DNA from: Methanothrix sp.
GTDB lineage: Archaea > Halobacteriota > Methanosarcinia > Methanotrichales > Methanotrichaceae
Length of the DNA stretch: 32,643 nt
Assembly: GCA_018052825.1 (NCBI GenBank)
Contig: JAGPMN010000017.1
Span: 1 to 32,643 of the forward strand
Direction of reading: 5' to 3'
Positions 2,782 to 5,477 of this stretch are shown piece by piece. The notes beneath the pieces were generated by a model. The model saw only the letters and a program-made list of their open reading frames with translations, was not told where the DNA came from and did no database searches. Both the position numbers and the translations under genes were made by a program. Position 1 is the stretch's first letter. Each line of letters begins with the position of its first letter.

Positions 2782-3702
2782 TCATGAAGATATGATGTGC
2801 CTTTCCACGCGCCCGCTGGAGAGAAGGGCCACCCGGCTGAGGGGCACATCCGCCTCTATCTCGTAGCCCAGCGCCCCGCCCAGATTGCGGGAGAACTGCA
2901 GTATCTCCTCATGCGGTGGCATGGCCTCGCGGGCAAGCCTGTTGCGGGAGCGGCCCAGGTGCATGTAGGCCTTGACCTCAACGAAGTCCGGCTCGCCCTG
3001 CGCGATTATGCGGGCCCAGTCTTCGGGCCGCTCCAGGTTCAGGCCGCGGGCCAGTGTCAGCCGGACAACGCTTCTGCAGCAGTGCTCCCGCAGGACCTCC
3101 AGGCTCTGCAGTATGCGGGGCCAGAAGTGGCCTGAGGGGCGGCATACCCTGTGGTACAGATCCTCATCCGGGGCGTTGAGGCTCAGGTAGAGCTGTGTTG
3201 GACGCAGAGCAGAAAGCACATCCGGATTGGTGCCGTTGCTCACAAGAAAGCTTGTCATGCCCCTGCTGCTGATGAGCTCGAGAAGCTCCGCCAGGTAGGG
3301 GTAGAGGGTGGGCTCGCCCATCAGGGAGAGGGCGACGTGCCTGGGCACCCACGCCTCGGCCAGGCGGGCCGGGTCGGTGGTCTTCGCCCCGCCGTAGCCG
3401 GAGAGAAACCTCTGCTGGCCGGAAAGGATGCCATCCAGAAGGGCAGCAGGCTCCAGGGGCTCCTTCGCCGGCGTCTGACCCTCTATCGGCCTCCAGCAGT
3501 GCAGGCAGAGGTGGTTACACTCCAATGTTGGCGTCATCTGCACGCACCTGTGGCTGGAGATGCCGTAGAAGTGGTGCTTGTAGCACTGCTCTCCGCCCCG
3601 CATGGCGCGATTGAGCCACAGGCAGGGCTTGACTGCTCCGCCGCCCACCAGGTGATAGCCCTGGCGGGAGAGTATCTGGACGGCCTGATCTTCCTGGGGC
3701 AT
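2782..3702 (-). CDS. taw1: tRNA 4-demethylwyosine synthase Taw1 (TYW1)
   Basis: A 306-aa radical-SAM enzyme that condenses pyruvate with N1-methylguanosine-37 of tRNA-Phe to build the tricyclic wyosine core. The SAM-cluster cysteines are C62, C66 and C69 (CNHLCLHCW). Three more cysteines, C27, C40 and C53, sit where archaeal TYW1 binds its second [4Fe-4S] cluster (C26/C39/C52 in the Methanocaldococcus enzyme, from memory). The context GISSHRCVQMTP before the CxxxCxxC motif is diagnostic. Length fits the archaeal enzyme without the eukaryotic flavodoxin domain. A TATA-like element at 3725-3738 on the minus strand is about 28 nt from the ATG, so the transcript may be nearly leaderless. No other wyosine gene is in the window. 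Confidence 0.93.
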   Translation of the reverse strand: MPQEDQAVQILSRQGYHLVGGGAVKPCLWLNRAMRGGEQCYKHHFYGISSHRCVQMTPTLECNHLCLHCWRPIEGQTPAKEPLEPAALLDGILSGQQRFLSGYGGAKTTDPARLAEAWVPRHVALSLMGEPTLYPYLAELLELISSRGMTSFLVSNGTNPDVLSALRPTQLYLSLNAPDEDLYHRVCRPSGHFWPRILQSLEVLREHCCRSVVRLTLARGLNLERPEDWARIIAQGEPDFVEVKAYMHLGRSRNRLAREAMPPHEEILQFSRNLGGALGYEIEADVPLSRVALLSSGRVERHIISS

Positions 3703-3724
3703 AACGGATGATGGTTGGCGGGAG

Positions 3725-3738
3725 GGGATAAAGCTTTG
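3725..3738 (-). promoter_or_regulatory. putative TATA box for taw1
   Basis: On the minus strand the sequence reads AAAGCTTTATCCCC. Its centre is about 28-30 nt from the taw1 ATG at 3702, the spacing expected for a TATA box of a leaderless or very short-leader transcript. It shares a short divergent region with the promoter of the channel-like gene. Confidence 0.4.
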
Positions 3739-3756
3739 GGGCTCGCCGGCTCTGCA

Positions 3757-3770
3757 TAAGTGATAAATCC
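3757..3770 (+). promoter_or_regulatory. putative TATA box for the pentapeptide-repeat gene
   Basis: The element TAAGTGATAAATCC is centred about 27 nt before the ATG at 3792, consistent with leaderless initiation at that codon. This supports the ATG at 3792 over the TTG immediately before it. Confidence 0.4.
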
Positions 3771-3791
3771 TGGCTCATCCAGCTAGCTTTG

Positions 3792-5330
3792 ATGCGAGCC
3801 TATCCCAGGGTCCTGCCATGCTCTTTCCATCGCCCGCGGTGGACAGGTATCTGGCACTTCTCCGCAATTCTCTTCGCCATAGCCATTCTGCTGGCCTGCG
3901 CAGGGGCAGCTCAACCTGCCCCGCTGGCTCCCCCATTTACGCAAAGCGTGCAGCCGAGCCATGAGGTCCCAGCCTCGCAGATCCTCTCAGCCATACAGTC
4001 TGGCCAGCCTGTCAGCTACGACAATGTGACGGTCACCGGCAGGCTGGAGCTGGACATGTCTGCCAGCCCCGTGCGCAGGCAGGTGAGCATCACCAACTCC
4101 CGCTTCCTGGATGAGGTGAGTGTCGTTGCTGTGACCTTCAGCGAGGATCTGGACATGAGAAACTGCATCTTCGAGGAGAACGTCAGCTTCGTCAAATCCA
4201 GGTTCCAGGGAGAGTTCAGGCTCGCAGGAGCTGTATTTCTCAAGCAGGCAGACTTTGCCGAGGCCGTCTTCTCCGGCCCGGCCACATTTGCCTCAGCCCG
4301 CTTTCTCAGTGATGCGAGCTTCAGCAATGCCGAGTTCGATGGAGATGCCATCTTTCTGGATACGGGATTTGCGAGCGACGTGGACTTCAACTATGCCAAG
4401 TTCATGAGGACTGGCTACTTTTATAGCGCATTCTTCGATGATGTCAGATTCTTTGAGACCCTCTTCCAGGGCCAAGTCACATTCCGTTCGGTTCGCTTCT
4501 TCGGCAATGCCGAATTCGCAGCCACGCGATTTGAGAGCGATGTGATCTTCCGGGACGCACGGTTCATGAGCGGCAGCACATTCGGCCTCTCCAGCTTTGC
4601 CGGTATCGTCGACTTCGGCGGCGTGAACTTCAGCCAGACAGCATTCATGGGAGGCGTCAAGTTCTCGGATCTGGCCTACTTCACGGACACCCACTTCGGC
4701 GGAGACCTGATACTGGAGGAGGCAAGGCTGTACAGCATGCAACTGGAGAGCGCCTCGTTTGCGCCCGGCTCGAGGATCAACCTCAACAGCACAGATTTCA
4801 ACAAGTTCGTGGTCCACTGGCCGACCATACAGGACCGCCTCGTTTACAACGGCGCCGCCTACATGGCCCTGGTCAAGAACTACAAGAGCCTGGAGTGGTT
4901 CGACGAGGCAGACGACTGCTACTACCAGTACCGCAGAGCCGGCCAGGATCGGGCCCCCTGGGGCTGGGGCAAGATATCAGACATCATCGCATGGCTGTCC
5001 TGCGGCTACGGGGTGCGGGTGAGCTACACAGCCTTCTGGTGCCTCTTTACCATCCTGTTCTTCGGAGTGATATTCTGGGCTGGAAAGGGCATGAGCAAAT
5101 TCGAAATAGAGGGCATGGAGCTTCCAGGCGATCCGCGCCTGCGTCCCAGCAAACGCGTCTCATTTACCGATGCCCTGTACTTCAGCATCGCCATGTTCAC
5201 CACCTCCCAGGCGCCGGTCAATACATATCCCGTGGGCTTCTACAGGCACCTGGCCATGGCGGAGGGCATACTGGGCTGGTTCTTCCTGGGGCTCTTCGTG
5301 GTGGTGCTCAGCGCAGTGCTGATTCGATGA
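3792..5330 (+). CDS. exported pentapeptide-repeat protein with two-TM ion-channel-like domain
   Basis: A 512-aa protein. The N-terminus is basic (five R/H in the first 18 residues), followed by a hydrophobic stretch at about 22-36 ending LLACAGA, which fits a signal peptide or lipobox with Cys36. From about 100 to 320 runs a phenylalanine-centred pentapeptide repeat, with units such as ARFxSDVxFxx, expected to fold as a right-handed quadrilateral beta-helix. A conserved linker (WLSCGYGVRVSY) leads to TM1 at about 412-431, a pore-helix-like segment (YFSIAMFTTSQAP, about 463-475) and TM2 at about 488-511. This matches the two-TM pore (Ion_trans_2) layout, but the filter position lacks the potassium signature TVGYG. 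Such fusions occur in other methanogens. The function is not known; a gated ion channel is the simplest guess. Confidence 0.8.
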   Translation: MRAYPRVLPCSFHRPRWTGIWHFSAILFAIAILLACAGAAQPAPLAPPFTQSVQPSHEVPASQILSAIQSGQPVSYDNVTVTGRLELDMSASPVRRQVSITNSRFLDEVSVVAVTFSEDLDMRNCIFEENVSFVKSRFQGEFRLAGAVFLKQADFAEAVFSGPATFASARFLSDASFSNAEFDGDAIFLDTGFASDVDFNYAKFMRTGYFYSAFFDDVRFFETLFQGQVTFRSVRFFGNAEFAATRFESDVIFRDARFMSGSTFGLSSFAGIVDFGGVNFSQTAFMGGVKFSDLAYFTDTHFGGDLILEEARLYSMQLESASFAPGSRINLNSTDFNKFVVHWPTIQDRLVYNGAAYMALVKNYKSLEWFDEADDCYYQYRRAGQDRAPWGWGKISDIIAWLSCGYGVRVSYTAFWCLFTILFFGVIFWAGKGMSKFEIEGMELPGDPRLRPSKRVSFTDALYFSIAMFTTSQAPVNTYPVGFYRHLAMAEGILGWFFLGLFVVVLSAVLIR

Positions 5331-5386: not shown

Positions 5387-5461
5387 GGGCGCGTGGCCTA
5401 GTCAGGATAAGGCGGCAGCCTCCTAAGCTGTAGATCGGGGGTTCGAATCCCCCCGCGCCCG
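5387..5461 (+). tRNA. tRNA-Arg (anticodon CCU)
   Basis: The acceptor arms GGGCGCG and CGCGCCC pair perfectly, with discriminator G. The D arm contains the conserved AG and GG elements, and the T arm is GGGGG-TTCGAAT-CCCCC. The anticodon arm GCAGC-CTCCTAA-GCTGT gives loop positions 34-36 as CCT, reading AGG arginine codons. No intron is seen and CCA is not encoded. It is convergent with hisG, only 16 nt from the hisG stop. Confidence 0.95.
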
Positions 5462-5477
5462 CTCGATTTTTATGTAT

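Follow-up and report, generated by a model that had tools for sequence, protein, structure and literature searches.

GluR0 is a prokaryotic, K+-selective channel with two transmembrane (TM) segments, in which an inverted K+ channel pore is joined to a substrate-binding protein, and the origin of the glutamate receptors is thought to have involved a K+ channel pore inserted upside down (PMC6385376). Opposite orientations are also found in YdgE and YdgF, homologous membrane proteins whose charge biases are opposite as well (PMC3962082). HalA, of the Hailong anti-phage system, is described as an ion channel that poly-dA adducts of HalB block (PMC13275509). The gene described in this study lies in a 32,643-nt stretch of DNA, the whole of which was analyzed and is referred to as the window. 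It encodes a candidate inverted pore that carries a predicted exported pentapeptide-repeat beta-solenoid. A literature search on pentapeptide repeat, potassium channel, and archaea returned nothing relevant, as judged by title and abstract.

The source contig belongs to Methanothrix, and the nearest named records are Methanothrix MAGs. Orthologs with 62 to 74% identity were found in 23 of the 24 other congeneric genomes. The neighborhood has the order xylose-isomerase-like gene, response regulator, TYW1-like radical SAM gene, channel gene, tRNA-Arg, HisG, metallophosphoesterase, and ELP3, and the gene order around the channel gene is kept in related genomes, other genera of Methanotrichaceae included (three genera). 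Because the locus is conserved and the congeneric genomes carry orthologs, the channel gene looks vertically inherited. Wherever neighbors were recognized, in the window or in related loci, they proved to be housekeeping genes. A tRNA-Arg (CCT) lies directly downstream of the channel gene at window positions 5387-5462 and is similarly placed in several related loci. In most loci examined, a second paralog with a signal peptide, 33 to 44% identical and with an SQGPID filter, is found directly upstream; this tandem copy is missing from the window (3700-3792).

The features of the protein are given in Table 1. AlphaFold2, run as a monomer on an 82-sequence alignment, produced a model with a mean pLDDT of 90.8, in which the solenoid strands scored 93 to 98 and the pore region mostly 80 to 97, the low-confidence stretches being residues 1-17, 38-44, and 442-446. 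A Pfam search with the window protein matched Pentapeptide_3 (PF13576) at E 2e-28. The repeats are thus identified by PF13576 and the solenoid by the AlphaFold2 model, which places the protein in the pentapeptide-repeat class, defined by a right-handed quadrilateral solenoid. The helices of the pre-TM1 bundle were modelled at residues 354-366, 370-387, and 392-407, and the translation holds no domain after TM2. Nearly all Methanotrichaceae members, whether or not they have a signal peptide, keep two bundle cysteines, at residues 376 (DDC; window 4917-4919) and 404 (SCGYG; 5001-5003), the first of which is often absent in homologs from other families. A disulfide or a metal site is possible at this pair.

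Table 1. Features of the channel gene (window positions) and of two paralogs in the window genome
Feature	Coordinates	Strand	Basis or remark
Whole gene, 512 aa plus stop	3792..5330	+	ORF and translation
Sec-type signal peptide, residues 1 to about 41	3792..3914	+	Positive n-region, hydrophobic core about 24-36
Pentapeptide-repeat beta-solenoid with N-terminal cap, residues 57-340, predicted exported	3960..4811	+	Pfam PF13576; AlphaFold2
Pre-TM1 helical bundle, residues 354-409	4851..5018	+	NYK..DADDCYYQYRR..SCGYGVR; columns invariant in A1/A2
TM1, residues 410-431, predicted outside to inside	5019..5084	+	AlphaFold2; charge test
TM1-P loop, Lys/Arg-containing, residues 432-457, predicted cytoplasmic	5085..5162	+	6 K/R
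Re-entrant pore helix, residues 458-471	5163..5204	+	AlphaFold2; Foldseek to NaK/KcsA
SQAPVN in place of TVGYGD, residues 472-477	5205..5222	+	Homolog alignment; invariant in orthologs
TM2, residues 484-511, predicted inside to outside, C terminus outside	5241..5324	+	AlphaFold2; depleted post-TM2 charge
Paralog L079, without signal peptide	G000:C41:69591-70499		Filter position AKTLVK; window genome
Paralog L080, without signal peptide	G000:C34:608-1234		Filter position GKTPQN; window genome

A preliminary description of this gene had placed the beta-helix outside the cell by means of a signal peptide or lipobox. In the AlphaFold2 model, a signal-like helix spans residues 19-35, and the small-residue cleavage region reads ..ACAGAA/QPA, the slash marking the likely site. 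Signal-peptide labels throughout the family were assigned by a hydrophobicity scan and reading by eye rather than by a trained predictor. A signal-type segment is present in all Methanothrix orthologs with a readable N terminus; its sequence is divergent, with no invariant column, and what recurs is a hydrophobic core together with an n-region of mostly positive charge and, farther downstream, an acidic region. AxA-type sites occur in 77 of 98 members, compared to 59.8 expected from shuffling. Judging by these features, the signal peptide, taken as a class, is genuine, and in combination with the pentapeptide solenoid it predicts that the beta-helix is exported, as had been proposed. The lipoprotein reading was dropped: the window protein contains LLAC, yet a lipobox is found in just 5 of 98 members. 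N-glycosylation sequons were likewise rejected as an export marker because their enrichment over shuffles, 1.86-fold with and 1.58-fold without a signal peptide, is seen in both groups and is non-discriminating.

Direct searches with the window protein do not recognize a channel. Pfam returned no family above cut-off besides Pentapeptide_3 and no channel match, NCBIfam did not identify a channel, and phmmer found no match among solved structures. A profile built on the last 180 residues retrieves family members across the phylum. Outside Methanotrichaceae, members that share the signal peptide, the solenoid, and the DADxxYYQYRR...CGYGV segment have mostly TTVGYGDWYP or TIGYGDWYP as the filter. 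Ion_trans_2 (PF07885) is matched by 12 of the 82 family members (best, 6.9e-16), and tandem paralogs pass its cut-off in three genomes. The wide C-terminal profile A4 retrieves KirBac3.1 at E 2e-6, followed almost exclusively by K+ channels and NaK, and the full-length family profile aligns the SQAPVN position with the KirBac3.1 filter. A profile of the noncanonical Methanothrix sequences alone reaches KirBac3.1 at just E 1.7. Since the window protein has no channel match and the Methanothrix-only profile is weak, the homology to K+ channels runs via intermediate members; that to Ion_trans_2 is likewise found through relatives and goes undetected with the window sequence alone. When A1 was compared profile to profile with eight K+ channels, the match was weak (P 0.019, probability 2.4%), yet in the filter register.

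The structural searches point the same way. Foldseek returned NaK (prob 1.00), KcsA (0.99), KirBac, and HalA for both the full-length and the pore models, and iGluR pores additionally for the pore model. NaK superposed at 1.6 A over 101 columns, and the monomer model has the TM1, re-entrant pore helix, and TM2 fold of two-TM P-loop channels. On the evidence of the models and of the profile homology through relatives, the C-terminal unit is a P-loop pore, and the pore-type TM pair of the preliminary description is thereby corroborated. By its homology, the window protein is derived from a K+-channel-type pore, but it is not classed as a K+ channel because a TVGYG-type filter is absent.

By a gap-free count back from the conserved P, the TVGYGD of relatives corresponds to SQAPVN in the window protein, a change that removes the tyrosine and both glycines of the filter and leaves A, V, and P in their place. 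That TTSQAP stands at the filter position had been noted before, and it is confirmed by homologs of the same architecture, which read TTVGYGDWYP there. TTSQAPVNTYP is constant in 23 of 23 readable Methanothrix genes (one ends in Q), while synonymous codons vary. Invariant columns among the orthologs make up 86% of the P-loop and filter, compared to 25% of the solenoid and none of the signal peptide. As computed from these alignments, the filter replacement is under purifying selection. When 295 genomes of the phylum were scanned with an exact degenerate pattern for TTSQAPVNTYP, it was found only in the window genome and in another genus of Methanotrichaceae. Other Methanotrichaceae groups have SQGPID, AQSPAS, AKTQVK, GKTPQN, and more at this position, and ANSKGLP and SGTRLFIDPPD are found in the filter regions of further paralog groups. 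SQAPVN is read as a lineage-specific (Methanotrichaceae) replacement of the TVGYG filter that relatives still keep. The carbonyl sites of TVGYG are not to be expected from SQAPVN, and for this reason the pore has probably lost its K+ selectivity. A look-alike with the QG of AMPA receptor pores was noticed, and no claim is made from it. One divergent signal-peptide clade (L144, L151, L152, and L156) has FYGYG ahead of TM1 and, at the filter, SGTRLFIDPPD or SGTKFFIDPPA.

If the signal peptide fixes the side of the solenoid, the pore should be inverted relative to the paralogs without a signal peptide, and the flanking charges should differ. The set compared comprised 147 family members, 100 with and 47 without a signal peptide, including the two paralogs in the window genome. 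Only Lys and Arg were counted because charge rules are less well calibrated for archaea, where negative charges act differently (PMC5525207). All three flanks differed. Before TM1, the Lys/Arg count was 4.9 with a signal peptide (n = 100) versus 8.3 without (n = 47); in the TM1-P loop it was 4.95 versus 1.00; and after TM2 it was 1.2 versus 2.3. In PGLS, using a tree built leaving out most of the charge-scored columns, the corresponding P values were 0.0076, 0.0016, and 7e-14, and that for the combined charge asymmetry was 7e-6. The shift had the same direction in nearly every subclade, the exception being the ANSKGLP signal-peptide subclade, which has a short TM1-P loop with 1-2 K/R. Within the window genome, L079 and L080 have 0-1 Lys/Arg in the TM1-P loop compared to 6 in the window protein. 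Ordinary K+ channels of the same class have few Lys/Arg in this loop too. Running counter to an inversion, the segment before TM1 keeps a net positive charge in members that have a signal peptide. The three-flank pattern is that expected for opposite orientations and survives correction for relatedness. The window pore is accordingly predicted from sequence to lie in the inverted orientation; signal peptide and charge pattern both place its N and C termini outside, not in the cytoplasm as in K+ channels. The reversed topology, earlier likened to that of ionotropic glutamate receptors, thus gains support, so that of the earlier interpretation the topology and the pore fold are supported and the lipobox is not.

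The signal peptide appears to have been gained or lost within the family. It is also absent from other family groups and from distant members with Cys/His-rich N termini, and TVGYG-type filters occur among members with and members without it. A single clade of signal-peptide members was rejected by the AU test (p-AU 0.0035). The best trees require a minimum of 4 to 5 changes of signal-peptide state, most of them on weakly supported branches; fully supported branches carry just one. An independent-pairs sign test gave no significance with so few supported changes, which is why PGLS and the AU test were used. Some signal-peptide members (L199, L196, L197, and L204) have long TM1-P insertions, with loops of about 85 to 115 residues that would be cytoplasmic under the inverted model and could be cytoplasmic sensor or contact domains. 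Taken together, a tentative proposal, to which we give somewhat less than even credence, is that one archaeal family holds K+-channel-derived pores in both orientations, even within one genome, switched by gain or loss of the sensor's signal peptide and with TVGYGD-type filters on both sides, and that the inverted Methanothrix members conduct via an SQAPVN-type filter opened by the extracellular beta-solenoid.

For the window protein itself, we consider it probable that a K+-channel-type P-loop pore is inserted upside down with its solenoid exported, and that it forms a tetramer gated from outside. The Sec signal peptide would export the pentapeptide solenoid; with the solenoid outside, TM1 must run from outside to inside. 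The pore loop would enter from the cytoplasmic side, TM2 would return to the outside, and four subunits would presumably form the pore. Most likely, the exported rod and the helical bundle would sense something extracellular and move TM1 and TM2, gating the pore. A rod on a bundle joined to TM1 of an inverted pore suggests, by analogy, gating from outside as in GluR0 and iGluRs, with a different sensor. Ligand control through such a solenoid-bundle-pore module is plausible because HalA, the best whole-model fold match, is described as a poly-dA-blocked channel.

A serious rival, unlikely in our judgment though far from negligible, is that the inverted 2TM/P unit is a nonconducting relic that acts as a tetrameric anchor or a transmembrane signal relay for the exported rod. 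The disappearance of the filter glycines and tyrosine would fit such a relic, as would the strong divergence of the filter regions between paralog groups (SQGPID, AQSPAS, ANSKGLP, and SGTRLFIDPPD). However, the P-loop and filter are the best-conserved part of the protein even as their codons vary, which points to a specific function of the loop. It is considerably less probable that the pore has the conventional K+ channel orientation, with an N-terminal hydrophobic segment that is no export signal and a cytoplasmic solenoid like that of the homologs without a signal peptide. The distant canonical-filter homologs with Cys/His-rich N termini do lack a signal peptide and look cytoplasmic, and some conserved positive charges remain in the pre-TM1 segment. 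These points are opposed by the divergent signal-type segment of all readable Methanothrix orthologs, with its positive n-region and acidic downstream region, and by the opposite charge shift at three separate flanks.

A still more remote reading, one to which we attach very little weight, would be a defense effector resembling HalA from the Hailong system, with a nucleic-acid signal that opens or closes it. HalA (PDB 9nyi) is the top whole-model fold match (prob 1.00, E 1.2e-3), but with TM-scores of 0.28/0.39 and an rmsd of 9.5, and it also matches the pore plus pre-TM1 bundle (pore domain TMq 0.48). Against this reading, the sensor is predicted to be extracellular, the core locus (TYW1, tRNA-Arg, HisG, metallophosphoesterase, and ELP3 homologs) is conserved in three genera, and no HalB-type nucleotidyltransferase was recognized next to the window gene or in related loci. 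Nor was a sequence relationship to HalA detected in the profile searches, HalA being absent from the matches listed.

Under the favored inverted-pore reading, living archaea contain closely related pores for which one or the other orientation is predicted, canonical filters occurring in each group, and the family seems to illustrate how a pore turns over in the membrane, as happened in the line leading to animal glutamate receptors. The gain or loss of a signal peptide, together with a few charges, would therefore be enough to put the flip to the test. In addition, the family offers an unstudied filter sequence that is kept throughout a genus contributing heavily to methane production.

Compared with known systems, the window protein has the TM1-P-TM2 fold of KirBac, KcsA, and NaK (Ion_trans_2) but differs in having no TVGYG, a predicted reverse orientation, and an N-terminal solenoid. 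YdgE and YdgF are small multi-TM proteins, whereas here the switch tracks a signal peptide before a large soluble domain. HalA/HalB signaling is intracellular. HalA is the best overall fold match of the full-length model and also matches the pore plus bundle. It is described as a ligand-regulated channel that answers a nucleic-acid signal from its partner HalB (PMC13275509), whereas the window solenoid is predicted to be extracellular. With GluR0 and iGluRs, the window protein shares, by prediction, an inverted P-loop pore and an exported sensor. Their sensor is a bilobed ligand clamp that the pore interrupts, whereas the window protein has an N-terminal pentapeptide solenoid only; Pfam found pentapeptide repeats and no bilobed substrate-binding-protein ligand domain. 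As for a sequence relation of the pore loop and TM2 to iGluRs, profile A5 gave no match at E<=10 among solved structures. The window protein differs further in its SQAPVN filter and in having paralogs of predicted opposite orientation in the same genome. There are precedents for inverted pores and, separately, for solenoid-pore proteins; what is new is a family predicted in both orientations, tied to the signal peptide, together with the SQAPVN filter.
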